This document shows, one piece after another, positions 33,942 through 50,894 of a stretch of DNA of 64,000 nucleotides. How positions within the stretch are numbered: position 1 is the stretch's first letter; each line of letters starts with the position of its first letter. A program made the position numbers and the translations under genes. Source of the DNA: Providencia rustigianii DSM 4541 (lineage in GTDB: Bacteria; Pseudomonadota; Gammaproteobacteria; Enterobacterales; Enterobacteriaceae); assembly GCF_000156395.1 (NCBI RefSeq), contig NZ_GG703818.1:611944-675943 (forward strand). Reading direction: 5' to 3'. The notes below the pieces were generated by a model. That model saw nothing but the letters and a program-made list of their open reading frames with translations, ran no database searches and was not told the origin of the DNA.

Positions 33942-34655
33942 ATGACATCACAACCTGCATACAAGCAAATTCAATCTTACATTTTACGCAGTATTGATTT
34001 AGGGATTTTTAAACCTGAAACTCAGATCCCCACGGAACTTGAGTTATGCGCACAATTTAATGTGAGCCGCATGACAGTAAATAAAGCAATCTCTGAATTA
34101 AGCCAGAAAGGAATTTTGAATCGCATTGCAGGGAAAGGCACTTTTGTTGCGACCCAGAAGCATGAACTACCTGTCACAAAAGCATTTGATATTTTTGATG
34201 AAATATCGACAAGCGGCAACAAATACAGTGGGCACCAATTACAGCTAAAAGTGATCCCCGCCTCCTCAGAAATCGCCCTACAACTCGGGGTGACGGAAGG
34301 AAGTGAAATTGGCTATTGTAAAATGCTGCATTTCGAAAATGATATCCCTCTGATGCTTGAAGAACGCTATGTTAACCATGCTATTGCCCCTGAATTTACT
34401 CAGCAGCACTATGGGGATAACGAAACGCCCAGTGGCTATTTACAACGTCATTTTCCTGTCAGTGAAATGGAGCATACCATCGAGGCTATCTTGGCAAGTA
34501 AAGCGATTGCCAATGCGTTGTCCATCAAAGAGAATGCTCCCTGTTTACAGCTAAGCCGCCGTACTTGGACAGAAAATACCTTAATTAGCTACGTTAATAT
34601 GATCAGTGCGGGTTCCCGCTATAAATTAAAACTACATTCTCGTATCGATAATTAA
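33942..34655 (+). CDS. hutC: HutC-type GntR family transcriptional repressor
   Basis: The 237-residue protein has an N-terminal winged helix of the GntR family (about residues 5-70, with IPTELELCAQFNVSRMTVNKAI) and a C-terminal UTRA ligand-binding domain, as in HutC. HutC proteins repress histidine-utilisation genes and release DNA when urocanate binds. The gene is convergent to the catabolic operon ending at 34805, and TGTATATACA-type boxes lie upstream of hutU. I infer that it controls that operon, perhaps sensing urocanate or imidazole propionate. Confidence 0.88.
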   Translation: MTSQPAYKQIQSYILRSIDLGIFKPETQIPTELELCAQFNVSRMTVNKAISELSQKGILNRIAGKGTFVATQKHELPVTKAFDIFDEISTSGNKYSGHQLQLKVIPASSEIALQLGVTEGSEIGYCKMLHFENDIPLMLEERYVNHAIAPEFTQQHYGDNETPSGYLQRHFPVSEMEHTIEAILASKAIANALSIKENAPCLQLSRRTWTENTLISYVNMISAGSRYKLKLHSRIDN

Positions 34656-34660
34656 GCGAT

Positions 34661-34690
34661 AAAAAAAGGGGCAAATTTGCCCCAAAACGA
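34661..34690. terminator. Bidirectional terminator between hutC and the ETF-QO gene
   Basis: GGGGCAAATTTGCCCC (34668-34683) forms a compact stem. On the minus strand it is followed by seven T residues, marking the end of the long hutU-etf gene set. It lies 115 bp after the ETF-QO stop and 13 bp after the hutC stop. Confidence 0.85.
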
Positions 34691-34804
34691 CTGATAACTC
34701 CTTAATATACCTTCGATAATTCCTGTAAATATTGTTGAATATTCTCAACAACATTCAACAAGAAATATGGCCGGTATCAACACATCAACATCACAACAAA
34801 TCAC

Positions 34805-36490
34805 TTACATACCTTGATAAATAGGGCCTTCTCCACCTTGCGGCGCTGTCCACGTAATATTTTGCCGAGGATCTTTGATATCACAGGCTTTACAATGCAG
34901 GCAGTTTTGCGCATTTATTTGCAGTTTTTCTTGCTGTTTATCATTCACAATTTCATAAACACCCGCTGGACAATATCGGGTTTCTGGTGCCGCATATTCA
35001 GTAAAATTCACCTGAATTGCTACATCAGGGTCACTTAAGCGTAAATGGCAAGGCTGCTCTTCTGCATGGTTCGTATTAGATAAAAATACCGACGAGGGTT
35101 TATCAAAACTTAATTTGCCATCAGGTTTTGGATAACTCATCGGTTGGAAATATTTGGCTTCTCTTAACCCTTGGTGATCCTCGGTTTTCAACTTTAATGT
35201 CCACGGAACTCGCCCTTTAAACAGGAGTTGCTCAGTTCCAAATAACATGGAACCTACCACCAGCCCTTTTTTCATGTATGGCTTAAAATTACGCGTCTGA
35301 TAAAGTTCCTGATACAGCCAGCTATTTTCAAATTGAGACTGGTATTGGCGTTTAAATTCTTGATGGTCAATCTGTTCATCAACCCAAGATTCAAATAAGG
35401 CTTCAGCAGCTACCATGCCGCTTTTCACTGCACAATGGCTGCCCTTAATCCGTGCCGCATTGAGAAACCCAGCATCATCCCCGATTAATGCACCACCCGG
35501 AAAACTCAGTTCAGGTAAGGCGGGTAGCCCTCCCGCGACCATAGTTCTTGCCCCGTAACTGACCCGCTCGCCTCCCGCTAAAAAGGCACTAAATGCAGGA
35601 TGGGTTTTCAAGCGTTGAAACTCTTCAAATGGCGACAGATAGGGATTTTCATAATTCAGACCAACCACTAATCCAACAGCAACTAAATCTTCCCCATAGT
35701 GATAAGCAAACCCGCCGCCATAAGTTTGGTTATTCAGCGGCCAGCCCACCGAATGGATCACGAGCCCCGCTTGATGCTGTGCTTTAGGAATTTGCCAAAT
35801 CTCTTTCAGCCCCAATCCATAGGTTTGTTTACCGCTATTTGCGGCTAAATCAAATCGCTCAATAAGCTGTTTACCTAACTGACCGCGACAACCTTCTGCA
35901 AAGAAGGTCATTTTGGCCATCAGATTCATTCCTGCCTGATACATCGCGGTTGGGTGACCTTGTTTATCTAATCCCATGTCCCCTGTAGTGACACCAATAA
36001 CGTGTCCATTTTCATCAAACACGATTTCGGTCGCGGCAAAACCGGGAAAAATATCAACGCCAAGCTGCTCCGCTTCTGCTGCTAATGCCGCACTAATTTG
36101 TCCAAGACTACCAATCAAATTGCCATGATTTTTTAAACATGCAGGTAGCAGCGATAAAGGCAATTTATTCGCTTTATTTTCTTTCAGCCATAAAAAACGA
36201 TCCTCACTGACAGGGGTCAGTGGAACAGATATTTTTTGTTGCCAATCCGCGAATAATTCATCAAGCCCACGAGGATCAATTACCGCTCCCGAAAGAATGT
36301 GTGCCCCAATTTCTGCACCTTTATCAATTAAGCAGACCGAAAGATCTCGCCCATTCTGGCTGGCTAACTGTTTTAGACGTATTGCCGCAGATAATCCCGC
36401 AGGTCCACCACCGACAATCAGGACATCAAATTCCATCGATTCTCGCTCTGGAGCCTCATTGATATTTACACTATTGTCGATAGTCATCAT
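34805..36490 (-). CDS. Electron transfer flavoprotein-ubiquinone oxidoreductase, full length with 4Fe-4S domain
   Basis: The 561-residue protein begins with an FAD-binding Rossmann motif (FDVLIVGGGPAGLSAAIRL). It continues with the family's quinone-binding, membrane-associated part (VGGSMLFGTEQLL region) and ends with a ferredoxin-like domain with cysteines in RYCPAGVYE and NCLHCKACDIKDP. This is the length of mitochondrial and proteobacterial ETF-QO. The FixC proteins of the carnitine and nitrogen-fixation systems are about 430 residues and use a separate FixX. It would pass electrons from reduced ETF to ubiquinone. The start has GAGAGGGAC upstream. It is the last gene of the operon, 9 bp after etfA. 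Confidence 0.93.
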   Translation of the reverse strand: MMTIDNSVNINEAPERESMEFDVLIVGGGPAGLSAAIRLKQLASQNGRDLSVCLIDKGAEIGAHILSGAVIDPRGLDELFADWQQKISVPLTPVSEDRFLWLKENKANKLPLSLLPACLKNHGNLIGSLGQISAALAAEAEQLGVDIFPGFAATEIVFDENGHVIGVTTGDMGLDKQGHPTAMYQAGMNLMAKMTFFAEGCRGQLGKQLIERFDLAANSGKQTYGLGLKEIWQIPKAQHQAGLVIHSVGWPLNNQTYGGGFAYHYGEDLVAVGLVVGLNYENPYLSPFEEFQRLKTHPAFSAFLAGGERVSYGARTMVAGGLPALPELSFPGGALIGDDAGFLNAARIKGSHCAVKSGMVAAEALFESWVDEQIDHQEFKRQYQSQFENSWLYQELYQTRNFKPYMKKGLVVGSMLFGTEQLLFKGRVPWTLKLKTEDHQGLREAKYFQPMSYPKPDGKLSFDKPSSVFLSNTNHAEEQPCHLRLSDPDVAIQVNFTEYAAPETRYCPAGVYEIVNDKQQEKLQINAQNCLHCKACDIKDPRQNITWTAPQGGEGPIYQGM

Positions 36491-36499
36491 GTCCCTCTC

Positions 36500-37450
36500 T
36501 TATGCCAATGCTTTGTCGAATTCAGGCAAAATTTGGAATAAATCCCCCACAATGCCATAGTCAGCAACTTGGAAAATTGGCGCTTCAGGATCACTATTAA
36601 TTGCGACGATCACTTTGCTTTCTTTCATTCCGGCAATATGTTGGATCGCACCGGAGATCCCCACGGCGATATACAGATCAGGTGCCACGATCTTACCTGT
36701 TTGCCCAACTTGGTAATCATTTGGAACATACCCCGCATCAACCGCTGCACGAGATGCCCCCACCGCAGCCCCCAATTTGTCAGCGATCGTTTCGAGCAGC
36801 GCGAAATTCTCACCGGAACTTAATCCTCGTCCCCCCGAAATCACCACCTTGGCAGAGCTGAGCTCAGCTCGACTCACTTGGGTCAGTGATTGGCTGGTTA
36901 ATTCAGAAAGTGGCTCAATGGGCTCCACAACGATATGTTCAACCGCTGCTGGTGCTTGCTGTACTTGGCTTCCAGAAAATGCGGAGTTACGTACGGTTAT
37001 CACCACTTGGTTACCATTATTTTGTACCGTTGCTAGAGCATTCCCTGCATAAATAGGGCGTACAAAAGTCTGAGCATCAATAATTTGGGTAATATCTGAA
37101 ATTTGAGAAATGCCGAGTGTTGCTGCAACCCGCGGCGCAATATTTTTGCCAAAAGTCGTCGCAGGAAACACTAAGTGGCTATAGGATTTGGCAACCGCTA
37201 CGATGGCGTTAGTCATCGGTTCAGCGAGCTGATTTTTTAATTCACTTTCATCAATGGCAATGACCTTATCAACACCACCGAGAGTGGCCGCTGACTCAGC
37301 GACTTGGCTAATATCTCTCCCAGCGACTAACACATGTAAACTTCCCCCTTGGGATACAAGTTCACGGGCGGCGGTCATACAGTTATAGGTTGCTGATTTT
37401 ATTGTTTGGTTATCATGTTCAACAACCACTAAAACGGATAATTGGCTCAT
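36500..37450 (-). CDS. etfA: Electron transfer flavoprotein alpha subunit
   Basis: The 316-residue protein has the ETF alpha layout: an N-terminal domain ([20 protein letters not shown]) and a C-terminal FAD-binding domain with [44 protein letters not shown] and [16 protein letters not shown]. With EtfB it accepts electrons from acyl-CoA dehydrogenases one at a time. It lies between etfB (15 bp) and the ETF-QO gene (9 bp), so these three form a full route from the dehydrogenase to quinone. Confidence 0.94.
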
Positions 37451-37465
37451 GGTCAGGCTCCCTCG

Positions 37466-38221
37466 TTAAATCACTTCTTTTGCTTGCAATTCAGTCACTA
37501 ATGCCGATACATCATTAAACAAGGTACATTGTCCTGTTCGTTTTTTCGGCTCCGCCACATTTAGAATTTTGACTTGCCCTAATGGCGAGAAATCCAACGT
37601 GGCGACATCAATAATTTCCAATGGTTTTTTCTTGGCTTTCATAATATTAGGGAGCGTTGCATAGCGAGGTTCGTTTAAACGTAAATCCGTCGTCACTATC
37701 GCCGGAAATCCCATGGATAAGGTTTCTAGCCCTCCATCAATTTCACGGGTCACTTGCACACGCTCACCTTCAATCACGATTTGTGAAGCAAATGTGGCTT
37801 GAGCACATCCCAATAATGCCGATAACATTTGTCCCGTTTGGTTGCAGTCATCATCAATCGCTTGCTTGCCTAATAAAATTAAATCGGGTTGTTCTTTGGT
37901 GACTATTTTCTGTAATAGGCGAGCAATATCGAGGGGCTCCAGCACCATTTCTGTCGGTCTTTGAACCAAAATGGCACGGTCAGCCCCTATTGCCATGGCG
38001 CTGCGTAATGTCTCTTGAGCAGTGGCATCGCCAATAGAAACCGCGATCACTTCCGTCGCCTTTCCGGCTTCTTTAAGGCGTACCGCTTCTTCCACTGCAA
38101 TTTCATCAAACGGATTGATCGCCATTTTGACGTTGGCGAGCTCAACCCCTGAACCGTCTGCTTTGACGCGAATTTTTACGTTATGGTCAATAACACGTTT
38201 CACAGCGACTAAAATTTTCAT
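37466..38221 (-). CDS. etfB: Electron transfer flavoprotein beta subunit
   Basis: The product is 251 residues when started at ATG 38221 (MKILVAVKRVIDHNVKIRV). GTTAGGAG-type spacing favours this ATG over a GTG two codons earlier. Family landmarks include MAINPFDEIAVEEAVRLKE, DLILLGKQAIDDDCNQTGQM, and the recognition loop NIMKAKKKPLE, which contacts partner dehydrogenases. It binds AMP and pairs with EtfA. It follows the permease gene after 159 bp. Confidence 0.94.
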   Translation of the reverse strand: MKILVAVKRVIDHNVKIRVKADGSGVELANVKMAINPFDEIAVEEAVRLKEAGKATEVIAVSIGDATAQETLRSAMAIGADRAILVQRPTEMVLEPLDIARLLQKIVTKEQPDLILLGKQAIDDDCNQTGQMLSALLGCAQATFASQIVIEGERVQVTREIDGGLETLSMGFPAIVTTDLRLNEPRYATLPNIMKAKKKPLEIIDVATLDFSPLGQVKILNVAEPKKRTGQCTLFNDVSALVTELQAKEVI

Positions 38222-38297
38222 AACCACTCCTAATCACGGACTTTGTTGCTATTTGTTGGATGTTCGACCTGTTTTTCAGGTTGAGGAAGCCCATAGC

Positions 38298-38312
38298 AGT
38301 GAATCATTCACT
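38298..38312. promoter_or_regulatory. Short perfect dyad upstream of etfB
   Basis: AGTGAAT-C-ATTCACT is a 15-bp perfect palindrome in the 159-bp gap between the permease gene and etfB. It could be an operator or a small RNA hairpin. It does not resemble the HutC boxes near hutU. Confidence 0.35.
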
Positions 38313-38380
38313 ACTAAGGACAACACTCGATTTATCGTTTTATTTATCAGTAAGTCAGATTCTAGGTAGGTAAATACACC

Positions 38381-39820
38381 CTATTTGGCTTCTGGCAATA
38401 TCAGGCGGTCTGCCACTGACATAGGCCAAATCTTCACAGCGGCATAGTAAATAATGCCAGTGGCAACTAACCCAATAATCCATGAAATATCCACGCCACC
38501 GAGGCTTTCAACGAGAGGCCCAGTATAGAATCCCGTCGCAATAAATGGCATTTGAATCAGAACGCCGATAACGTAGGTGATGATGCCGACTTTATTCCAA
38601 CGACCATAACGCCCATTTGGATTCGACAACTGCGGAACGTCATAGCGCCCTTTTGTCACCCAGTAATAATCCACTAAATTAATAGCACTCCACGGTGTGA
38701 AAAACGCCAGTAAGAACAGTAAGAAAGCCGAGAATAGTTTCAGGAATGAATGTTGCCCTGCCAACCCGAGTAGAGTCGAGAAGCTAACCATTAAGATGAT
38801 GAAAAACAGTCGTTGACCGCGGGTAATCTGATGCTTCCCTTTGAAACCGCACCAAATCGCCGCCATCGACATAAAGCTGCCATATGCGTTCAGTGCAGTA
38901 ATGGTCACTTTGCCGAAGAAAATACTGATATACAGCAGAGCCGCAATCAGCCCTGTACTGCCCAACCCAACAATATAAGAGACTTCATGTCCAGCAAACT
39001 GATTTCCCGCCAATGCAGCGGCAAAAACGCCAAGGATCATCGATGCTTGAGTCCCAATCACAGTCCCGGAACCCACGGCTAAAAAGGCTTTGATGGTTGG
39101 GGTTTTGGTTGGTAAGTAACGAGAATAGTCAGCAACATAAGGCCCAAATGCAATCTGCCAAGAAGCTGATAATGACATCGCAAACAGAAAATTAGTCCAA
39201 TTGAAATGACGATTCTCCAATAGTACAGAAACATCATTCATATAAAATAGACGGAAAAACAGGTAGAAAAAGGCAATAACGCCAATAACACTCGCCGCTT
39301 TACCCAGTATATGGATAATCCGATAACCACAGATAGTGATCCCAATAATCACTAAACCAAAAATAATAATCCCCACCCAGTCACTTACATGCAAGAGTTG
39401 CCCCACCGCTTGACCGGCTAATACCGTGCCACTGGCTGAGAACCCCACATACATTAAGCAAACCAGTAAAATAGGAATAACGGCGCCATAGACCCCAAAC
39501 TGAACACGGCTGGAGATCATTTGTGGTAGACCCAGTTTAGGCCCTTGAACCGCATGCAGTGCCATGACTGCACCACCTAATAATTGGCCGATAAATAAGC
39601 CAATCAGTGACCAAAATACATCGCCACCCAGAACTACGGCCAGCGCTCCGGTGACAATTGCCGTGATTTGTAAGTTAGCACCAAACCATAATGTAAATTG
39701 GCTGGATAACGTGCCATGGCGTTCTGATTCGGGAATATAGTCGATGGAACGAGCTTCGATAAGGGGAACGTTATCTTGTCGAGGCTTTTTTTGCTCAATA
39801 ATATCGTTGGAAACTGTCAT
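38381..39820 (-). CDS. NCS1 family permease (purine/cytosine/allantoin type), probable imidazole compound importer
   Basis: The 479-residue protein has about 12 membrane segments and NCS1 features: the N-terminal TLWFGANLQITAIVTGALAV, GLPQMISSRVQFGVYGA, SWQIAFGPYVADYSRYLP and FTPWSAINLVDYYWV. NCS1 transporters take up purines, pyrimidines, hydantoins and related ring compounds with Na+ or H+. It is embedded between the acyl-CoA dehydrogenase and etfB genes, so import of an imidazole acid such as imidazole propionate or urocanate is the natural inference. Substrate is not readable from the sequence. Confidence 0.85.
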   Translation of the reverse strand: MTVSNDIIEQKKPRQDNVPLIEARSIDYIPESERHGTLSSQFTLWFGANLQITAIVTGALAVVLGGDVFWSLIGLFIGQLLGGAVMALHAVQGPKLGLPQMISSRVQFGVYGAVIPILLVCLMYVGFSASGTVLAGQAVGQLLHVSDWVGIIIFGLVIIGITICGYRIIHILGKAASVIGVIAFFYLFFRLFYMNDVSVLLENRHFNWTNFLFAMSLSASWQIAFGPYVADYSRYLPTKTPTIKAFLAVGSGTVIGTQASMILGVFAAALAGNQFAGHEVSYIVGLGSTGLIAALLYISIFFGKVTITALNAYGSFMSMAAIWCGFKGKHQITRGQRLFFIILMVSFSTLLGLAGQHSFLKLFSAFLLFLLAFFTPWSAINLVDYYWVTKGRYDVPQLSNPNGRYGRWNKVGIITYVIGVLIQMPFIATGFYTGPLVESLGGVDISWIIGLVATGIIYYAAVKIWPMSVADRLILPEAK

Positions 39821-40046
39821 GGTAATTCCTCTTTAAGCAAGGCTGGCCTAAAGAATGAGACAATTAGTCGTCACGAATGAATACACTGTGTTGCAAGAGA
39901 CAGCCATTCGGCGCTACGCGGATAATTTATTTTTATATCTATCCGTCATTAATAATTGAAATACATTCTTAAAACCTGATTGTTGTTGTGTTTTTATTCC
40001 ATGATCCTGTTGTCAGGGACTGCGTCCTATTGATGATTTTGAAACT

Positions 40047-40075
40047 CCCAGCAGATACCTGTCCTATCTACTGGG
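40047..40075. other. Intra-operon hairpin between acyl-CoA dehydrogenase and permease genes
   Basis: CCCAGCAGATA and TATCTACTGGG pair over 11 positions with one mismatch and a 7-base loop. The hairpin lies 19 bp downstream of the dehydrogenase stop, in a 273-bp gap before the permease. No U-tract follows on the minus strand, so it is not a simple terminator. It may be a processing or stabilising element. Confidence 0.5.
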
Positions 40076-40093
40076 TCTAACGCATGCAAATCT

Positions 40094-41230
40094 TTACGCA
40101 TCTAATACTGCGCGAGAAATAATGATTTTTTGAATCTCGGAGGTGCCTTCAAAAATACGTAAAATGCGGGCATCTCTAACATAGCGCTCGAGGGGTAAAT
40201 CACGAATATAGCCATAACCGCCGTGCAACTGTAATGCCGCATCGGTGACAAAACCGGCGCACTCAGCAGCAAACAATTTTGCAGTGGCGGATTGCAAGCT
40301 AAAACGCTCACCAGAATCTCGTAACTCTGCCGCATTCCATGTCAGTAAACGTGCCGCTTCCAGCTGAGTATGCATATCGGCAAGTTTCCACTGTGTACCT
40401 TGATAAGCCGCCAGTGGTTTTTTACCAATTTGACGCTCTTTGACCCAGCCTAATGCACTTTCCATCGCTGCACGAGCAATACCTAGTGAGGTCGCTGCAA
40501 CTTCGACACGTCCTTTATCCAATACTTCCATTGCGGTATGAAAACCTTTATTTTCCTCTCCCAATAGTGCAGATTCAGGTAACCAACAATTCAGCGCTAA
40601 CTCATAAATGGTACTGCCACGAAGCCCCATGGTTTTTTCTGGATGGGAGAATGCCACGCCCTCAGTGCCTTTTGGGATCATAAATGCACTGATCCCACGA
40701 GCTCCAGCCTCAACATCCGTTTTGGCGTATAACACAATAAAATCAGCTTCTTTGGCATTAGTAATATAGTGTTTATTCCCCCGAATACGCCAGCCACCAT
40801 TTTCACGAGTCGCAACAGTTCGCATATCCGCAGGGTTAGAGCCTGCTGCGGGTTCCGTTAAGCCGAATGCCCCTAATAATTCCCCACTGGCGGCTTTCGG
40901 TAGCCAATAATTCTTTTGCTCTTCCGTTCCACCAATTAGGATAGAATCGGTCGCTAAAAAATGAGCGGTTAATGAGGATGATGTCGAGGCACATGCCGCG
41001 GCAACGGCTTCAACAATCATACTCATGGCGATACTGCCGATACCAAACCCACCGTATTGTTCTGGTAAGTTAATTCCCCAACAGCCTATTTCACCCAGTG
41101 CAGTTAAGCTTTCTGCACAGAAAGTTTCTTCTTCATCATAACGTTGAGCATTCGGTTGTAAGATGTCGCGGCATACTTTTTCTACCGCATCAACAATGGC
41201 GTGTTCTGTTTCGTTAATATTAAAACTCAT
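40094..41230 (-). CDS. Acyl-CoA dehydrogenase, proposed imidazole propionyl-CoA dehydrogenase
   Basis: The 378-residue protein shows the full acyl-CoA dehydrogenase fold: FAD/substrate segments GAFGLTEPAAGSNPADM and WRIRGNKHYITNA, and the C-terminal ALQLHGGYGYIRDLPLERYVRDARI. The catalytic base is in RIFEGTSEIQ (Glu361). Such enzymes oxidise an acyl-CoA to the trans-2-enoyl-CoA and hand electrons to ETF. The start overlaps the CoA-transferase stop by 4 bp. With a urocanate hydratase in the same operon, the likely pair is imidazole propionyl-CoA and urocanyl-CoA; this is inference. CaiA of carnitine metabolism is a relative in a similar setting. Confidence 0.9.
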   Translation of the reverse strand: MSFNINETEHAIVDAVEKVCRDILQPNAQRYDEEETFCAESLTALGEIGCWGINLPEQYGGFGIGSIAMSMIVEAVAAACASTSSSLTAHFLATDSILIGGTEEQKNYWLPKAASGELLGAFGLTEPAAGSNPADMRTVATRENGGWRIRGNKHYITNAKEADFIVLYAKTDVEAGARGISAFMIPKGTEGVAFSHPEKTMGLRGSTIYELALNCWLPESALLGEENKGFHTAMEVLDKGRVEVAATSLGIARAAMESALGWVKERQIGKKPLAAYQGTQWKLADMHTQLEAARLLTWNAAELRDSGERFSLQSATAKLFAAECAGFVTDAALQLHGGYGYIRDLPLERYVRDARILRIFEGTSEIQKIIISRAVLDA

Positions 41231-42411
41231 TGGATAGTCTCCGCGCTTTTCGTCGTTATTGTCGTCGGTTTATATTCCGCATTTCCTTCCCCAAGCTGTG
41301 GCGCTCTTTGGGTCACATGGGGTTTTGTCCCATTAAAGAAAACAGGCTGAGAAATCAATGGAGTACCGCCATCATGGAGATGAGTAAGTACTTGGCGGAC
41401 TTGCGCATGCTCGCTTTCGGTCGCTTGCTGTAAATTGTGGATGGGCGAAGCAGGAACCCCAGCGTTAAGCAGTAAGTCACACACTTCCTCGACACTTTTT
41501 TGCTCTGTCCAACATTCAATTTCTTGGCGTAAAGCTGCTTGGTTGATAGTACGGGTTGGATCATCCCGATAACGATGGTCTTGGGATAACGTCGGTTTTT
41601 CCATGCATTCGCAAAGACGCTGGAATAATTTTTCACTGGCAATCGCAATGACCACCAAGCCATCTTTCGCTTGGTAAGTATCAAACGGAGTGGATACCGG
41701 ATGGCGATTTCCCACTAAGCTCGGTGCTTTATTGTTGGCAAATAAATTAGAGAGTCCCGTCAGTTGCATACTAAGCAACACGTCCACCATCGCCACATCG
41801 ATATATTGAGCACTTTCACCATGGCGCTCTCTGGCAAATAACGCACTGCTAATCGCCCATGCAGCAAATACGCCAGCACATACATCACCGATAGACTCGC
41901 CGCTGCGAGTTGGACCCGTTTCAGGGAATCCCGTCACACTCATTAACCCTGACATGGCTTGCGCGACAATGTCATACGCGGGATAGCTAGCTAAAGGGCT
42001 ATTTTGTCCAAAACCCGAAATACTGGCATAAATAATCTGTGGGTTATGCTGTTTCAGACTGTCAAAGTCGATCCCAAGACGTTGGGTTACACCGGGACGA
42101 AAATTTTCGACCACCACATCGCTCTCGTTGATCAATTGAAAGAGGATCTCGCGGTCGCTATCTGATTTCAGATCCAGTTCAATGCTGCGTTTTCCTCGGT
42201 TGATCAAACCGTAATAGACACTTTCTCCATCAATAAACGGTCCCAAATGACGGCTATCATCACCATGATCAGGCACTTCAATCTTGATCACTTCCGCACC
42301 AAGATCCGCCATCATGCCGGTGCAATACGGTCCCGCTAGAACACGGCTTAAATCAATGACTTTGATCCCCGCCAGTGGCCCTTGTCTTTTTTGAGTGGAT
42401 GCAGCATTCAT
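41227..42411 (-). CDS. Family III CoA-transferase (CaiB/BaiF type), proposed urocanyl/imidazole propionyl CoA-transferase
   Basis: The 394-residue protein starts at MNAASTQKRQ, which has AAGGA upstream; a frame 17 codons longer has no support. Family III motifs are GIKVIDLSRVLAGPYCTGMMADLGAEVIK, with the first halves of the CoA pocket, VVVENFRPGVTQRLG, and the catalytic Asp176 in SGESIGDVCAG. These enzymes move CoA between two carboxylates through an aspartyl-CoA thioester. It lies 57 bp after hutU and overlaps the dehydrogenase gene, so transfer from urocanyl-CoA to imidazole propionate would close a cycle without ATP cost. Substrate is inferred. Confidence 0.9.
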   Translation of the reverse strand: MNAASTQKRQGPLAGIKVIDLSRVLAGPYCTGMMADLGAEVIKIEVPDHGDDSRHLGPFIDGESVYYGLINRGKRSIELDLKSDSDREILFQLINESDVVVENFRPGVTQRLGIDFDSLKQHNPQIIYASISGFGQNSPLASYPAYDIVAQAMSGLMSVTGFPETGPTRSGESIGDVCAGVFAAWAISSALFARERHGESAQYIDVAMVDVLLSMQLTGLSNLFANNKAPSLVGNRHPVSTPFDTYQAKDGLVVIAIASEKLFQRLCECMEKPTLSQDHRYRDDPTRTINQAALRQEIECWTEQKSVEEVCDLLLNAGVPASPIHNLQQATESEHAQVRQVLTHLHDGGTPLISQPVFFNGTKPHVTQRAPQLGEGNAEYKPTTITTKSAETIQ

Positions 42412-42468
42412 ACTGAATTCCTTATTTAAGGCTAAACGTTGCCGACCCCATCGAGTCGGCATTCGAGA

Positions 42469-44136
42469 TTACTTCACCATCGGCAAGTTGAGCCCTTGCT
42501 GCTTCGCACAGTTAATGGCAATGTCATAACCCGCATCCGCATGGCGCATAACCCCCGTCGCTGGGTCATTGTGCAGAACACGAGCCAAACGTTTATCTGC
42601 GGCATCCGTCCCATCACATACAATCACCACACCCGCATGTTGCGAGAAGCCCATTCCTACCCCACCGCCGTGGTGTAAGCTGACCCATGTTGCGCCGCCA
42701 GCAGTATTCAACAGCGCATTCAGTAATGGCCAATCAGATACAGCATCAGACCCATCTTTCATCGCTTCCGTTTCACGGTGTGGACTCGCTACTGAGCCTG
42801 AATCTAAGTGGTCACGACCGATGACAACAGGGCCTTTCAGTTCGCCATTTTTGACCATTTGGTTAAAGGCACGACCGAGTCTTTCTCTGTCTTTAAGACC
42901 GACCCAGCAAATACGCGCAGGTAAACCTTGGAATGCAATGCGCTCACGCGCCATATCTAACCAATTGTGCAGATGCTTATCGTCAGGGAGCAGCTCCTTC
43001 ACCTTTTGGTCAGTTTTATAGATGTCTTCAGGGTCGCCAGAAAGAGCTACCCAGCGGAATGGTCCAATACCTTCACAGAACAGAGGGCGAATGTAAGCAG
43101 GAACAAAGCCTGGGAAATCAAATGCATTCGTTACGCCTTCATCTTTTGCCATTTGACGAATATTATTGCCGTAGTCAAATGCCGCTGAGCCGCGTTTTTG
43201 CATTTGCAGCATGGCATCTACCTGCACTGCCATGCTTTTCTTCGCGGCTTTAGTCACTTCAGCAGGGGCGCTTTGTTGCTTTTCACGCCATTGTTCTAAT
43301 GTCCATCCTTGCGGTAAATAGCCATGAATAGGGTCATGAGCACTGGTTTGGTCAGTGACTGAATCAGGTGTGATATTGCGCTTCACCATCTCGCTATACA
43401 CATCCGCAGCATTGCCTAACAAGCCCACGGAAACTGGCTTACCGCTAGCTTTCGCTTCTTCGATATAGCCCAACGCTTCATCTAATGAGGTGGCTTTTTT
43501 GTCTACATAGCGGGTTCTTAAACGGAAATCGATGCGGCTTTCATCACACTCAACCGCAATCATGCTAAAACCAGCCATGGTTGCTGCCAGAGGCTGTGCA
43601 CCGCCCATTCCTCCCAAGCCTCCCGTTAAGATCCAACGACCCGCCGAGTTACCATTAAAGTGTTGTTTTGCTAGAGAAATAAAGGTTTCATAAGTGCCCT
43701 GAACAATGCCTTGAGAACCGATGTAGATCCATGATCCTGCGGTCATTTGTCCGTACATCATCAAACCTTTGCGATCTAATTCATTAAAATGATCCCAGTT
43801 AGCCCAATGTGGAACGATATTCGAGTTAGCAATTAAAACTCGCGGCGCATCTGCGTGAGTTGGGAAAACACCCACTGGCTTGCCCGATTGAACCAGCAAA
43901 GTTTGGTCATCTTCGAGGTTTTTTAATACTTCCAAAATTTTGTCGTAGCATTCCCAGTCACGAGCTGCGCGACCAATGCCACCGTACACAACGAGACTTT
44001 GTGGATGCTCAGCAACATCAGGATCCAAGTTATTTTGGAGCATGCGGTACACCGCTTCTGTTAGCCAGCTTTTACAGGTTTTTTGGCTACCGTGAGCCGC
44101 TCGGATCACACGCGTTGAATCTGTACGGTTTAACAT
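42469..44136 (-). CDS. hutU: Urocanate hydratase
   Basis: The 555-residue protein is a full-length urocanase. It begins with the family's typical sequence [20 protein letters not shown] after a short tail. It carries the NAD-binding [19 protein letters not shown], then [19 protein letters not shown] and [10 protein letters not shown] with conserved cysteines, and [21 protein letters not shown]. It hydrates urocanate to 4-imidazolone-5-propionate with NAD+ as an electrophile. No hutH, hutI or hutG is in the window. It is first in the minus-strand gene set that continues with CoA-transferase and dehydrogenase genes, and HutC-type boxes lie 200-330 bp upstream. Confidence 0.97.
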
Positions 44137-44334
44137 TATTCAGTCCCCTATCCATCCATTTGGTTTAACTTAAAATTAACAATAAATTCAGTAAGGTCAT
44201 CGTTAAGTGTGCTGCTTGCGGCTAATTCATTGCTAAGTAAACTTTTAAATTTGATATATTTATCATTAAGTTAAATTTAAATGAACCTGCCGCATGATGA
44301 TTTTTCTGTTAAATCTACTTGTTCGATGATTAAA

Positions 44335-44344
44335 TATATATACA
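44335..44344. promoter_or_regulatory. HutC-type operator half 1 (TGTA-N2-TACA, one mismatch)
   Basis: TATATATACA differs at one position from the palindrome TGTATATACA found at 44458. HutC boxes in other proteobacteria have a TGTA-N2-TACA core, as I recall. Confidence 0.55.
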
Positions 44345-44356
44345 TTTGCTTCACAA

Positions 44357-44366
44357 AGTATATACA
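44357..44366. promoter_or_regulatory. HutC-type operator (one mismatch)
   Basis: AGTATATACA, followed by TTTA, is centred 22 bp (about two helical turns) from the previous box, so two regulator dimers could bind the same face of the DNA. Confidence 0.6.
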
Positions 44367-44457
44367 TTTAAATTTGAATTTTTGTACCAACAGTGAAGAT
44401 GGGATAGGAAGAAAAGTTAGACAACAATAACTAGATAGCTGTTTCTACACAAAAACT

Positions 44458-44467
44458 TGTATATACA
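44458..44467. promoter_or_regulatory. Perfect HutC-type operator palindrome
   Basis: TGTATATACA is an exact 10-bp palindrome of the HutC core, within CTTGTATATACATTTG. It lies 322 bp upstream of hutU and 265 bp upstream of the gene at 44732. The 44137-44731 gap holds no convincing gene; a long leader for hutU seems likely. I could not fix the promoter hexamers. Confidence 0.65.
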
Positions 44468-44731
44468 TTTGAATTTCGATGAAGAAACAAGCAAATAGCA
44501 AAAATGAGAGAAGCTTCACATTTAGTATGGGTAATCTGAGTTTGATAGTGAGCGGCAATACATGCCATTGCAGATTAATAGCCGTAAAGTTTTACTTTGA
44601 TATAATTAATAATAGCACTATACACAATGCATATAAGAACATTGATTATCATTCTTTTTTGCAATATTTAGCATGTTGACTCGTTTAAAATAAAATCAAT
44701 ATATGATTAACTAATAAACTACGAGCCAATT

Positions 44732-45550
44732 ATGTTCAAAATAAATCAAGTAACAACCAGCCAACTCCATGTTAAACCCCATTTAGAAAACAATGCTAAA
44801 AATGTAGAGATAAAAAAAATAAATCAAACTAATGATTCGTTTTTTAATAAATTCTGCCAATTATTCAAAAATGATAAAAATAATACCGCACAGTCTGTAA
44901 CACAAAATAGCGCGAATACATTCTTAAAACAGACTTTCTCCATCCCTGAAAATGCCCACATGATATCTGCTGGTGAACAGATAACTTACTGTTGGAATGA
45001 GTCGTTAGATAGCTATGTTCCGAATGCAGCAGATCAGAGAATTGAAGCGAAAAATCAAGACTACTCGAGTGTACTACCATCGCAATTCATCAAAGATTTC
45101 AATAGAATAAACTATAGCATGACATTTTTAGGTAATGATATGCCTGAGTTTAGCAACGAGTTTTCTCAAGAAGATAGACTGCAATTTTTCGCTGAATTTG
45201 TCACACTTCCCCATGCTGAAAAATTGTGCCAAATTGCTCATCAAGGTCATCTCGCCGAGCCTTATATTTTACTCACTATGAAAAATAAAAATTTTGACTT
45301 TATTATTCCTCAATCAAAAGAGAATAATAAATTAAAAGTAAATATTGATAAAACAGAAGATAAAAAATATATTATAACCTCTAGTAATGAATATTATTTA
45401 AAACAAATTCAGCCAGAAATTATTTTAGATAAGACTATTTTATTTACTGAAAGAAAAACCCATTTAATCACTAATCAAAATGGTCAGCTATCCTTAGACC
45501 CAAATCAGAAAGATCTTCTTACGTTTAAAATCACTCAAAAATATAATTAA
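44732..45550 (+). CDS. Uncharacterised protein, effector-like composition
   Basis: I do not recognise this 272-residue protein. It is Asn/Lys/Gln-rich, has no membrane segment and no classical signal peptide. Residues 1-60 look flexible and polar, as in many type III secreted proteins, followed by a mixed alpha/beta part. The coding DNA is clearly more AT-rich than the flanking operons, a sign of transfer. It is divergent from hutU and convergent to the liv operon. A secreted role is a guess from composition only. Confidence 0.6.
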   Translation: MFKINQVTTSQLHVKPHLENNAKNVEIKKINQTNDSFFNKFCQLFKNDKNNTAQSVTQNSANTFLKQTFSIPENAHMISAGEQITYCWNESLDSYVPNAADQRIEAKNQDYSSVLPSQFIKDFNRINYSMTFLGNDMPEFSNEFSQEDRLQFFAEFVTLPHAEKLCQIAHQGHLAEPYILLTMKNKNFDFIIPQSKENNKLKVNIDKTEDKKYIITSSNEYYLKQIQPEIILDKTILFTERKTHLITNQNGQLSLDPNQKDLLTFKITQKYN

Positions 45551-45622: not shown

Positions 45623-46324
45623 TTATCCACCCAAATAAGCGCTACGTACTGCTTCATTGGCGAGTAATGCTTTACCGCTATCTTCCAGAACAATATGCCC
45701 ATTTTCTAATACATAGCCTCGATCAGCTAGTTTCAGAGCTTGGTTAGCGTTTTGCTCAACCAGGAAAATCGTCATTCCCTCTTCCCTTAGCTGCAAAATA
45801 GTATCGAAAATTTGCATAATAATTATCGGCGCTAAACCCAGAGAGGGTTCATCCAATAAGAGTAATTCTGGCTGGCTCATCAGCGCACGTCCAATGGCAA
45901 GCATTTGCTGCTCACCGCCAGACATCGTGCCAGAACGCTGATGACGACGTTCATGTAACCGTGGAAATAGCGTATAAACACGTTCAATACGCTCATGATA
46001 TTGTTGGCGATTTGCAAAGAATCCCCCCATCGCCAAGTTTTCTTCTACCGTCATCCGAGAGAAAACTCGCCGACCTTCAGGTACGATAGCAATATCTTTG
46101 CGCATGATTTGTGGCGTAGGCAACGGAGTAATGTCCATACCGCGATATAACACTTGCCCTGAAGATGCCCGAGGCTCACCGCATAATGTACTGAGCAATG
46201 TCGTTTTTCCTGCGCCGTTAGCGCCTATCAGAGTAACGATCTCACCCTTCTGAATGTTCAAACTGACATTATGCAAAGCCTGAATTTTTCCATAATGGGT
46301 GGAAACTTGTTTAAATTCTAGCAT
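45623..46324 (-). CDS. livF: Branched-chain amino acid ABC transporter ATPase LivF
   Basis: The 233-residue ATPase has Walker A (GANGAGKTT), signature (MSGGEQQMLAIGRALMS) and Walker B (LLLLDEPSLGLAP) motifs. The sequence is that of LivF rather than LivG, with the family-specific AIVPEGRRVFSRMTVEENLAMG. It energises uptake of Leu, Ile and Val together with LivG. It is the last gene of the operon and shares one base with the livG stop. Confidence 0.96.
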   Translation of the reverse strand: MLEFKQVSTHYGKIQALHNVSLNIQKGEIVTLIGANGAGKTTLLSTLCGEPRASSGQVLYRGMDITPLPTPQIMRKDIAIVPEGRRVFSRMTVEENLAMGGFFANRQQYHERIERVYTLFPRLHERRHQRSGTMSGGEQQMLAIGRALMSQPELLLLDEPSLGLAPIIIMQIFDTILQLREEGMTIFLVEQNANQALKLADRGYVLENGHIVLEDSGKALLANEAVRSAYLGG

Positions 46325-47103
46325 TAGTAAGCCTCCCCCAAATACGCTTTGATAACATCAGGATGCTGACGTATTTCACTCGGTGAACCATTGGCTAATG
46401 GCGTGCCTTGGTTCACCACATAAATACGATCAGAGATTCCCATCACCAACTTCATGTCGTGTTCAATCAAGAGGATTGATACATTATGATGTGTACGTAA
46501 CTCCGCAATCAGCTCATCCAAATCATTGGTTTCTTTTGGATTCAATCCTGCCGCCGGCTCATCTAACATCAGAATTTCCGGTCGTGTGACCATGCAGCGC
46601 GCAATTTCGAGTCGGCGCTGCTGCCCATAGGCTAAATTTCCTGCTTGGCGGTTAGCAAATTCTAATAAATTGACACGTTCAAGCCATTTAACCGCATTAT
46701 CTACCGCTTCCGCCTCGGCACGACGAAAAGCAGGAGTTTTCAATAACCCGGAAAAAATCCCATTTTTCAAATGTTGATGCTGAGCGACTAATAGATTTTC
46801 AATCACCGTCATCTCTTTAAATAAGCGAACATGCTGAAAAGTACGGATGACGCCAAGACGAGCAATGCCTTGACCTGATAAGCCTTCTAAATGTTTGTCA
46901 CGATACATAATCGTGCCGCTAGTCGGTTTATAAAATCCCGTTAAGCAGTTGAATATCGTCGTCTTACCCGCACCGTTAGGGCCAATCAAGGAGACTATTT
47001 CCCCTTGGTTTAAGGTTAATTCAACATTGTTTACCGCCAACAAACCACCGAACCGCATGGTTAGGCCTGTGACTTGCAACAGAGGCGTCGCTAAATTTGT
47101 CAT
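46324..47103 (-). CDS. livG: Branched-chain amino acid ABC transporter ATPase LivG
   Basis: The 259-residue ATPase has Walker A ([18 protein letters not shown]), the LivG-type [24 protein letters not shown], signature ([13 protein letters not shown]) and Walker B ([14 protein letters not shown]). It forms a heterodimer with LivF under the LivHM channel. It overlaps the livM stop by 4 bp. Confidence 0.96.
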
Positions 47104-48371
47104 GATGCTCCGCCTCCTTGCGCATTTTTCAGTTTCATATGGCGACGCTGCATCGGTAATAAGCCTTGTGGGCGCCAGATCATCATCAATACCATTAGAG
47201 CACCTAGCAATAACATGCTGTACTCATTCAGATCTCGCATCATCTCCCGCGATACGACGAGAATAATCGCCGCTAATATCACCGATGTTTGTGAACCCAT
47301 ACCCCCAAGCACCACAATCGCTAACACGAATGCGGATTCCGCAAACGTAAATGATTCTGGGCTAATAAATCCTTGCCGTGCAGCAAATAATGCCCCTGCG
47401 AACCCAGCAAATGCCGCACTGATAGTAAAGGCGGTTAGTTTAATTCGAGTTGGACTTAAACCAAGAGAGCGGCACGCGATTTCATCTTCGCGTAGCGCTT
47501 CCCACGCACGCCCTAGAGGCATACGTAATAATCGATTGATCACGATAAAAGTGAGCACGACGAGTAATAACGCCACAAAGTAGAGGAAAATAATTCGGTC
47601 ACCAGGGTTATAATCTAAGCCGAAAAAATTATGAAACGTATCCCAGCCATCTTTGGCTGTGCGGCTAAATTCTAATCCAAAAAATGTTGGTTTAGGTAAC
47701 TGGCTGATCCCATTAGGGCCACCTGTAATCTCCGTGTTATTCAGTAATAGAATACGCACGATTTCCCCAAAGCCGAGGGTCACTATCGCCAGATAGTCAC
47801 CTCTTAGCCTCAAAACAGGAAAACCGAGTAAGAATCCGGCTAACGCCGCCGTGATCCCTGCAATGGGTAAGCTTTCCCAAAAACCAAAATCATAATAGTG
47901 GTTTAGCAAACCAAAGGTATACGCGCCGATGGCATAAAAGCCTGCATAACCCAAAACCAGTAAGCCTGATAACCCAACAACCACGTTCAGCCCCAAACCC
48001 AGCATCACGTAGATTAAAGTCAGTGTCGCAATATCCACACTGCCTCGAGAGACTATAAATGGCCAAATGATCGCCGCAACGATAATGAGTATACCGATAA
48101 TTTTTTGTCTAACTGAACCTCCATCAAAATCAGGTAAAGCCCAAGACTGCTTAGGTACGCCTTGCCAGACTTTACTCAGAGCGGGACGGATCAATTGATA
48201 CACAAAAATGATCCCAATACCGGCAAAGATCCAATTCCAACGAACTGAGTCCCCTGATTCAACCACTAGTTTGGTACCATCAAGGCTTAACTTCAGCCCC
48301 ATCATAAATACCGCTAAGATGAAAAAAGTGACAGAGGCAATAATGGCGCTGATCCAGTTTTCTTTTCTCAT
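47100..48371 (-). CDS. livM: Branched-chain amino acid ABC transporter permease LivM
   Basis: The 423-residue membrane protein is the length of E. coli LivM (425), with about ten segments and the permease motif [23 protein letters not shown] that docks on the ATPase. It overlaps livH by 4 bp and livG by 4 bp, so the operon is translationally coupled. Confidence 0.95.
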
Positions 48372-49294
48372 ACTTTTTCGACCTCCGGGCGGCCCAGAAT
48401 ACCGGTCGGCATGATTAACAGAACGCCAATCAATAGCCCGAATGAGACAACATCTTTATATTCTGTACTTAAATAAGCAGACGTCATGGCTTCAGAGACA
48501 CCAAGGATCAAACCGCCCAACATTGCGCCCGGAATACTGCCAATTCCGCCTAGCACTGCCGCTGTGAAAGCTTTCATTCCTGCCATAAACCCAATGTAAG
48601 GGTTGATAACACCGTAAAATTGACCCAGTAAAACGCCCGCAACCGCAGCCATTACCGCACCGATAACAAAGGTCAATGAAATAACACGATCTGTATTGAT
48701 CCCGAGTAAACTCGCCATTTTTAAATCTTCAGCACAAGCACGGCAAGCACGACCCATTCGGGAATAGCGGATAAACAGCGTTAAGGCCAACATGGATAGA
48801 AATGTTACGATCCAGATAACTAGCTGCATTTTGGATATTGTGGCTTCAAAACCGTCACTTTCACCTAGTACCCACTGCCCAGTGATCAAACTGGGTAAAG
48901 CCAGATCACGAGAACCTTGGGATAGGCTGACGTAGTTCTGCAAGAATATCGACATCCCGATCGCAGAGATCAGCGCAATCAAACGCTTAGAATGGCGAAC
49001 AGGTCGATATGCAACACGCTCAATACTCCAACCATATGAGCTAGATACCACAATTGCCGCAATAAACGCTGCCGCAATTAAGATCCAACCCACATCGATC
49101 CCCAGCATCATTAAGCCAGCAATCGCAATAAAAGAGACGTAACTGCCAATCATGTAAACTTCGCCGTGAGCAAAGTTGATCATTCCGATGATGCCATACA
49201 CCATGGTATAGCCAATGGCTATCAGGGCGTAGGTGCTCCCTAATGTTAAGCCGTTGAGGAATTGCTGAATAAAATACAGAATTTGGTCTGACAT
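48368..49294 (-). CDS. livH: Branched-chain amino acid ABC transporter permease LivH
   Basis: The product is 308 residues from [15 protein letters not shown], the E. coli LivH length and start. A frame 25 codons longer begins upstream without family support, while AAGGATAATCTT precedes the chosen ATG. The sequence is highly conserved, for example [27 protein letters not shown] and [18 protein letters not shown]. It forms the channel with LivM. A 110-bp gap separates it from livK. Confidence 0.96.
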
Positions 49295-49404
49295 AAGATT
49301 ATCCTTTCGAACTACTGTCCCTCTATGGAGAGCAGAAGCCGGAAGCCCGTTATTAGGCTCCCAGCTCATCGCTTGACGACTTAATATTTCTCAACTCGAG
49401 GGAA

Positions 49405-50514
49405 TTACTCTATCGGTGTAGAGGTTCCATCTTTGTGCCACTCGAACACACCAAATTCAAAACCTTTCAAATCACCGTTTGGCTGCCAGCTCAATTGCCC
49501 CATAACGGTATCCACAGGATTCGCTTTCAAATCTTTCGCTAGCACTTCAGGCTCTAAACTTCCAGTGCGCTGCATTGCGGTGGTTAAACCTTGAATAGCA
49601 GCATAAGTTGTCCAGACGAATGGTCCCGTAGGATCTTCTTTTTTCTTTTTGAGCGCATCGACGATCGGTTGGTTGGCAGGCAGTTGGTCATAACGTTTTG
49701 GTAGCGTCACTAACATGCCTTCAGATGCATCACCCGCGATATTCGATAACGAAGAGTTGCCCACACCTTCAGGTCCCATAAAGCGAATATTTAGACCAGA
49801 TTGCTTAGCTTGACGCAGAATTTGCCCCATTTCCGGGTAATATCCCCCAAAGTAAACAAAATCGACGTTCTCTTTTTTCAGTTTTGCCACGAGTGCAGAG
49901 AAATCTTTGTCCCCAGCGGTAACCCCTTCAAACATCACTTCTTTAGTGCCTGACTTATTCAAACTTTCACGCACTGAACGAGCCAAACCTTCACCGTACT
50001 GTTGTTTGTCATGAATCACAGCAATGCGTTTAGGTTTAATTTTTTCGAGGATATATTTTGCCGCAGTAGGCCCTTGGTCAGAATCTAAGCCCGTCGTACG
50101 CATGATCAACTGATAACCACGGGTGGTTAAATCTGCATTTGTCGCTGCTGGAGTGATCATGATGATGCCTTCATCTTCATAAATATCGGATGCTGGCTGA
50201 GTTGAAGAGGAACACAGATGCCCGATGACATGGCGAATACCGTCGTTAATGACTTTGTTTGCCACCGCAACCGCTTGTTTTGGATCACACGCGTCGTCGT
50301 ATTCGACAGCAACTAATGTGTCTCCGTTAATTCCACCTTTCGCATTAATATCAGCGATCGCTTGGCGAGCGCCAGTAAACTCCATATCACCATATTGAGC
50401 GACAGGACCGGACATCGCACCAACAACCGCGATTTTAATCTCTTTCGCCCATCCTGCTGGACTTAATGCCATTGCGATACAGCCGGCCAATAATGCTTTA
50501 TTAATATTCTTCAT
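49405..50514 (-). CDS. livK: Leucine/branched-chain amino acid-binding periplasmic protein (LivK/LivJ)
   Basis: Starting at 50514 gives 369 residues with a signal peptide ([23 protein letters not shown]) and the mature sequence [23 protein letters not shown]. The frame runs 30 codons further upstream, but GGGGACGCAAGA marks the chosen ATG. The [19 protein letters not shown] segment holds the disulfide and ligand pocket of the Leu-binding family. It delivers Leu, or Leu/Ile/Val, to LivHMGF. Distinguishing LivK from LivJ is not certain; adjacency to livH and panM favours LivK. Confidence 0.92.
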
Positions 50515-50894
50515 TCTTGCGTCCCCGCCATCGTGGTTATGAGTGTTTGTGATTGATTTATAATCAGTTATTATAGGTGACAGGTTCATTGCCTGATATT
50601 TCAAAACATAGCCAATAAGGCTATATATTTCATATCATTAAACAAGAGAATTATGCTAAATAGCAAATGGATATAGTAGCTATTTACATCAGATACAGAA
50701 TAAAAAACTAATGGTAAAAAGTGTATTTTTTGTAAATACTAGTGTTATATTCCAGTTAAATTTACCTTAATCCGAGCTAAACTCGGAAAATTCACTCATG
50801 CGACATTTTTCTCTCTAAAATTAAAAAATCAGTTCCAGATCACTCTGCGGATAAAATAGACTGCAACACACACCAATAAAGGGATCACATTAAG

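Follow-up and report, generated by a model that had tools for sequence, protein, structure and literature searches.

The locus described here raises the question of why a urocanate hydratase gene should stand in one operon with genes for a CoA-transferase, an acyl-CoA dehydrogenase (ACAD) and its electron acceptors. It lies in a stretch of 64,000 nucleotides (the window) of Providencia rustigianii DSM 4541, contig NZ_GG703818.1, positions 611,944 to 675,943. The genes probably form a HutC-controlled catabolic operon that would convert imidazole propionate (dihydrourocanate) to urocanate, a mechanism deduced as a whole from sequence. That the module delivers urocanate to the histidine utilisation (Hut) pathway is very likely on the same grounds. 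Imidazole propionate is inferred to be the substrate, since it differs from urocanate only by saturation of the alpha-beta bond; the priming step, the transported molecule and the part of urocanyl-CoA as CoA donor are inferences too. Gut bacteria make this metabolite, which has been linked to insulin resistance and cardiometabolic disease; a review from 2025 calls it a non-metabolizable product of urocanate reduction (PMC11872695).

The genes named in an earlier sequence-only reading were all recovered by profile searches at the places given there. The features of the locus are:

42469 to 44136, minus strand: hutU2, urocanate hydratase, the second copy in the genome (TIGR01228, 979 bits against a cut-off of 375)
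41227 to 42411, minus strand: family III CoA-transferase (PF02515, 405 bits; the open reading frame opens at 42462)
40094 to 41230, minus strand: ACAD, proposed imidazole-propionyl-CoA dehydrogenase (ACAD domains, Glu361, LATDS and GRxE[VI]A)
38381 to 39820, minus strand: NCS1-family permease, proposed importer of imidazole propionate/urocanate (PF02133)
37466 to 38221, minus strand: electron transfer flavoprotein (ETF) subunit EtfB, respiratory type (domain match and comparison with solved ETFs)
36500 to 37450, minus strand: ETF subunit EtfA, respiratory type (domain match and comparison with solved ETFs)
34805 to 36490, minus strand: ETF-ubiquinone oxidoreductase (ETF-QO), full length (PF05187 and PF21162)
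33942 to 34655, plus strand: hutC2, HutC-type GntR/UTRA regulator (TIGR02018, 246.5 bits against a cut-off of 220)
44458 to 44467, no strand: predicted HutC operator TGTATATACA, a perfect match 331 bases upstream of hutU2
44357 to 44366, no strand: weaker HutC-like site, one mismatch (pattern search)
44335 to 44344, no strand: weaker HutC-like site, one mismatch (pattern search)
34668 to 34683, minus strand: intrinsic terminator-like hairpin (GGGGCAAATTTGCCCC, then a T-run) at the operon end (pattern match only)

From 44136 to 34805 the minus strand carries hutU2 and the genes for the CoA-transferase, ACAD, NCS1 permease, EtfB, EtfA and ETF-QO in this order, and the CoA-transferase and ACAD frames share 4 bp. 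The likely start of the CoA-transferase is at 42411, preceded by AAGGA, and for EtfB the ATG at 38221 was favoured over the GTG at 38227. The regulator gene stands at the end of the gene set, as had been described, but on the plus strand and hence convergent with the operon. Terminator-like sites numbered 14 in the region, with 11.4 expected. Since the same gene order was found in 11 of 11 other Providencia loci fetched and is largely kept in other genera, it is not due to chance. In P. stuartii NCTC11800 (L020), hutU2 and the CoA-transferase and ETF-QO genes are each spread over several frames and the ACAD is intact, reflecting decay or sequencing error. With its broken frames it does not figure in the ACAD and hutU comparisons, and the ACAD rows do not include L041, whose ACAD is split in two.

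To collect relatives of the ACAD, 84,980 species genomes were scanned with a pattern-based search, and the best 80 of 231 were analysed. In 25 of these 80 loci, from Providencia, Citrobacter, Pragia, Pseudomonas and Halomonas, the ACAD was 64-97% identical, the CoA-transferase (CoAT) gene was adjacent (25/25) and hutC and/or hutU was present on the stretch (25/25). The other 55 loci, at 35-45% identity, included none with hutC or hutU at E <= 1e-10. The sequence-only reading had proposed a check for co-occurrence of hutU with CoAT, ACAD and etf genes in related genomes, and the linkage to hutU/hutC was indeed repeated across genera. The order is hutC-hutD-hutU-CoAT-ACAD-NCS1-EtfB-EtfA-ETF-QO in Citrobacter (hutD named by eye) and hutC-CoAT-ACAD-NCS1-EtfB-EtfA-ETF-QO in Pragia; one Pseudomonas locus has hutC-CoAT-ACAD only. 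No match to hutH was found on the 25 close-relative stretches. On longer stretches of three Halomonas-type genomes (L132, L137, L138), hutH faces the module at distances of about 7, 10 and 14 kb.

Two Halomonas species carry near-identical hutU copies, on hutH contigs and on CoAT-ACAD contigs. In H. urmiana (L139), an unbroken operon reads hutI-hutG-hutU-CoAT-ACAD-EtfB-EtfA. Here CoAT-ACAD directly follows hutU, a position taken by hutH in Providencia, Pragia, Citrobacter, Pseudomonas L143 and four Halomonas-type contigs. The sole HutH match of H. urmiana scored 422 bits, below the cut-off of 539, and similar HutH-like proteins below the cut-off occur in other Halomonas alongside a true HutH. 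H. litopenaei (L140) had neither hutH nor CoAT-ACAD after hutU within 6.5 kb. A plain exchange of the module for hutH among Halomonas was rejected, because the hutU repeats break the other assemblies and H. litopenaei is without hutH after hutU; for H. urmiana the finding is limited to the place of the module behind hutU. In L129-L138, where the near-identical copies interrupt the assemblies, the contigs end in hutU, and hutH is on one side and CoAT-ACAD on another; the two face each other over 7-14 kb.

The urocanase itself was then compared with known enzymes and with its relatives. HutU2 matches TIGR01228 over residues 10-553, its full length, as expected of a urocanate hydratase, and the urocanate hydratase structure 1uwl with 978 bits. 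It is 74.5% identical to the hutU1 product of the same genome and keeps 324 of 364 positions that are invariant in the other urocanase rows. A role in thiourocanate/ergothioneine breakdown was rejected: HutU2 fell below the cut-offs of both the thiourocanate and the S-methyl-thiourocanate hydratase models (NF058530, 705 against 930; NF058531, 722 against 880). In a tree of 24 urocanases, picked so that every genus and context was covered, the hutU genes from the clusters of Providencia, Citrobacter and Halomonas took three separate places. A single clade of all 9 cluster hutU rows was rejected by the approximately unbiased (AU) test (p-AU 1.3e-63), as were the pairings of Providencia with Citrobacter (1.55e-4), Providencia with Halomonas (3.0e-48) and Citrobacter with Halomonas (2.8e-27). 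As the hutU genes of the clusters do not form a single clade, hutU and the module have been joined repeatedly. No other single argument speaks as strongly as this independent joining for the predicted product of the module being the substrate of HutU.

The same association was seen in a set of 14 alphaproteobacterial plasmid records with an ACAD 52-55% identical (E <= 1e-90). In 4 of the 14, CoAT-ACAD lies inside a hut operon, directly before hutU. The P. aminophilus and P. alcaliphilus plasmids combine it with hutF, hutI, hutH, hutG and hutU, and a Thioclava plasmid has the same hut set around it, with hutU in two frames; in the hut operon of the Pseudorhodobacter plasmid no hutG match was found. 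Three further records (two Sinorhizobium, one Mesorhizobium) have a hutC-type gene nearby that is 31-33% identical to hutC1.

Both enzymes of the proposed CoA cycle were compared with solved structures. The closest solved structure of the CoA-transferase is YfdE 4hl6, and the aspartate of its IGD motif, the catalytic residue of family III CoA-transferases, aligns with the YfdE aspartate and is kept in 24 of 24 rows checked. In the ACAD, the N-terminal, middle and C-terminal ACAD domains were all matched, and Glu361 in FEGTSE, which we take to be the catalytic Glu, aligns with the EGTSE of solved ACADs including 5ol2. The predicted structure (pLDDT 94.7) gave a Foldseek TM of 0.97 to 4l1f; to CarC of caffeyl-CoA reductase, 6fah, the ACAD scored only 243 bits. 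The combined signature LATDS and GRxE[VI]A occurs in 24/24 gammaproteobacterial and 14/14 alphaproteobacterial ACAD rows and in 0/55 outgroup rows, and was not found in the Fusobacterium ACAD homologue. The subfamily forms a supported clade with 25 of the 35 tree rows (support 100/99).

The direction of the reaction is indicated by the electron chain. EtfB scored 280 bits to the Paracoccus ETF, 268 to the human ETF and 108 to the ETF of 1o94, and less to CarD of caffeyl-CoA reductase (95), 4kpu (81) and 5ol2 (80). EtfA is likewise closest to the Paracoccus/human ETF, with 315 bits against 181 for 5ol2. ETF-QO has the quinone-binding and 4Fe-4S domains and matches 2gmh with 626 bits over residues 15-561, nearly its whole length. 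By these comparisons EtfAB and ETF-QO are of the respiratory type, predicted to carry the ACAD electrons to ubiquinone, and the module is therefore expected to work in the direction of oxidation.

For the regulation, the HutC binding site TGTA-N2-TACA was used, as given in a published study (PMC12977541). Three HutC-like sites, one of them the perfect TGTATATACA, lie about 200-330 bases before hutU2; the perfect one falls within the range marked by the sequence-only reading. Of 21 cluster operons, 12 of them from Providencia and so not independent, 19 have a HutC operator in the 450 bases before them, against 0.31 expected from shuffles. Five of the 25 loci, L031-L035, stand outside this count, as their contigs end or their operons start further upstream, and so do Halomonas L130 and L133, where the hutU copy led into is not assignable; both have HutC sites, and with them the count is 21/23. 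In the P. rustigianii genome, ATGTATATAC has 10 matches, compared with 2 in the reversed control, and 4 of the 10 precede hut genes (two hutU2, one hutU1 and one hutI). At one mismatch the window contains 3 sites with 2.37 expected, which is no better than chance, so the sites are significant only because of their position and their conservation across loci. A HutC-controlled operon consuming imidazole propionate would fit these observations.

The urocanate made by the cluster would have somewhere to go, since hutC1, hutU1, hutH, hutI and hutG are all encoded in the genome. The sequence-only reading had noted the lack of hutH, hutI and hutG at the locus and suggested looking for the latter two elsewhere. 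All three are absent here and present on contig C33: hutH at 975431-976810, hutG at 164125-164940 (TIGR01227, 302 bits against 229) and hutI across both ends of the contig. C33 has 979,937 bases and closes on itself, as hutI runs across its two ends, although it carries chromosomal genes. Among the cluster genomes tested (24, of 25 loci), hutI was present in 24/24, hutH above the cut-off in 23/24 and urocanase matches in 24/24, 22 of these above the cut-off and two broken by contig ends. The hutI background in the class sample is 46/369, and the 24/24 is partly a genus effect.

The permease may also point to the Hut pathway. Over 477 residues it shares about 70% identity with an NCS1 protein whose gene, in a Pseudomonas hut operon (L142), is flanked by hutU and hutH. 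A review puts the gene of a high-affinity urocanate transporter, hutTu, at this position in P. fluorescens SBW25 (PMC8871633).

In the proposed pathway, the NCS1 permease would import imidazole propionate, and the CoA-transferase would charge it with the CoA of urocanyl-CoA to give imidazole-propionyl-CoA and free urocanate, the first turn being primed perhaps by acetyl- or succinyl-CoA. The ACAD would strip the alpha and beta hydrogens of imidazole-propionyl-CoA and thereby remake urocanyl-CoA, its electrons passing via EtfAB and ETF-QO to the quinone pool. Each turn would thus convert imidazole propionate to urocanate without ATP, and HutU2, followed by HutI and HutG encoded elsewhere, would take urocanate to glutamate. 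An oxidative CoA-thioester route feeding Hut had already been proposed from the sequence alone; it is now supported by the linkage to hutU/hutC across genera, the four alphaproteobacterial hut operons, the HutC operators, the likeness of the permease and the respiratory ETF/ETF-QO.

Several observations weigh against this proposal. Loci of one genus are not independent, and the 55 comparison loci are a pattern-based sample taken from the best 80 of 231. Seven of the 14 alphaproteobacterial relatives carry the same signature residues and have no hut gene within 9 kb; six of these loci are LysR-type or unannotated, and the Gemmobacter locus has Rieske, HisC-like and FAD-oxidase genes. The ACAD subfamily is therefore not tied to Hut alone, and the seven loci may employ the same chemistry under other regulation or act on another substrate. 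The HutU2 of Providencia is unusually divergent, on a long tree branch: all 11 HutU2 rows differ at 27 positions, 25 of them at residues 154-318, that do not vary among 44 other urocanase rows (duplicates included). In Fusobacterium vincentii (L157), an ACAD outside the subfamily, together with EtfBA, lies about 5-7 kb from hutH-like/hutU-like genes, which may connect an ACAD with histidine use in a separate way. Finally, the best NCBIfam matches of ACAD, EtfA and EtfB are to the acryloyl-CoA reductase set, far below the cut-offs; with scores of 387 against 640 (NF042972), 184 against 600 (NF042970) and 120 against 475 (NF042971), membership in AcrCAB was rejected.

The divergence of HutU2 and the alphaproteobacterial loci outside hut operons would also suit a different substrate oxidised by the same enzymes: one that still ends in urocanate or a near relative, such as an imidazole propionate with a ring substituent, or a short acyl-CoA whose only tie to histidine use is shared regulation. 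No solved structure or curated equivalog above its cut-off fixes the substrate. Such an alternative is unlikely given the repeated independent pairing with true hutU, the urocanase score of HutU2, which far exceeds the cut-off, its scores under the cut-offs of both thiourocanate models, its 324 kept positions, and imidazole propionate being the alpha-beta saturated counterpart of urocanate. Rather improbable is the reverse direction, in which urocanyl-CoA would be reduced to imidazole-propionyl-CoA as an electron sink and imidazole propionate released. Cai/Fix, caffeyl-CoA reductase and acryloyl-CoA reductase reduce their enoyl-CoA, and both the Cai/Fix precedent and the first-ranking acryloyl-CoA reductase models for ACAD, EtfA and EtfB speak for it. 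However, the ETF is closest to the respiratory ETFs of Paracoccus and human, a complete ETF-QO is encoded, a hutU beside the module would compete for urocanate, and the module occurs in Halomonas and Pseudomonas, which are largely aerobic genera. A salvage of CoA from imidazole-propionyl-CoA or urocanyl-CoA formed in side reactions, serving no growth pathway, would suit the locus L028 with its hutC-CoAT-ACAD only, but permease and electron-chain genes accompany CoAT-ACAD in Providencia, Citrobacter and Pragia, and we give this explanation hardly any weight.

The oxidation of imidazole propionate to urocanate, which we prefer, can be set beside several known systems. Like the canonical Hut system (hutH, hutU, hutI, hutG, hutC), the cluster would lead to urocanate and uses HutU, HutC and the HutC operator, with HutI and HutG encoded elsewhere; unlike it, the cluster lacks hutH, and instead of histidine an oxidised CoA thioester would be the source of urocanate. 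A family III CoA-transferase, an ACAD, an ETF and an ETF-QO-like protein are shared with Cai/Fix (CaiA, CaiB, FixABCX), whereas the ETF-QO of the cluster is of the full respiratory type and the opposite net direction is expected. The sequence-only reading had drawn this comparison, which is right for the enzyme types and holds as an analogy only: membership was rejected by scores far below the cut-offs of CaiA (174 against 540), CaiB (124 against 413), FixA (86 against 219), FixB (123 against 549) and FixC (57 against 610). CarCDE, the caffeyl-CoA reductase, and FldA/AcdA of the phenylpropionate route also employ a CoA-transferase, an ACAD and an ETF on an aryl acrylate/aryl propionate pair, but these systems are anaerobic and reductive. 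Urocanate reductase UrdA acts on the same pair, urocanate and imidazole propionate, in a reaction with no CoA thioester.

Bacterial breakdown of imidazole propionate is reportedly old knowledge, as the title of Coote and Hassall (1973) speaks of imidazolylpropionate degradation by Pseudomonas testosteroni, now Comamonas testosteroni; we know of no gene for it. A 1965 title reportedly names imidazolepropionate as the inducer of histidine-degrading enzymes, which counts in favour of our proposal. Within an open-access library, which covers few subscription journals, the searches turned up no paper that names genes for breaking down imidazole propionate and, under five spellings, no mention of urocanyl-CoA, urocanoyl-CoA or imidazole-propionyl-CoA; in a 2026 preprint on imidazole propionate, phrases on its degradation or catabolism gave no match. 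If our proposal is true, the cluster is a genetic sink for imidazole propionate, used as food. Its genes would mark consumers, give a testable sink in host studies, explain why HutC should respond to imidazole propionate and provide candidates for the bacterial activity of the 1973 title.

The distribution of the cluster is narrow. The ACAD was carried by 23 of 24 Providencia genomes and by 3 of 149 genomes of the family sample (own genome counted in both). In the class sample, 1 of 369 genomes had it at E <= 1e-120, our own, which makes the cluster rare beyond certain genera. Among 20,395 E. coli records, none matched the Citrobacter CoA-transferase and ACAD genes at the DNA level. Taken together, it is fairly likely that a new ACAD subfamily serves a dedicated CoA-thioester consumption of imidazole propionate that is nearly universal in Providencia, occurs also in Citrobacter, Pragia, Pseudomonas, Halomonas and Alphaproteobacteria, and was wired to Hut several times independently.

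Beside CoAT-ACAD, Mesorhizobium (L154:11296-16149) and Gemmobacter (L150:2875-7530) have genes for a Rieske (VanA-type) oxygenase, a 2Fe-2S protein, a HisC-like aminotransferase and a GlcD-like FAD oxidase, a set that might serve to process imidazolyl-lactate or methylated imidazoles. In the window, a five-gene set for a branched-chain amino-acid-type ABC transporter (45623-50604, minus strand, assigned by eye) lies upstream of hutU2, and a plus-strand open reading frame (44732-45550) stands between the two.

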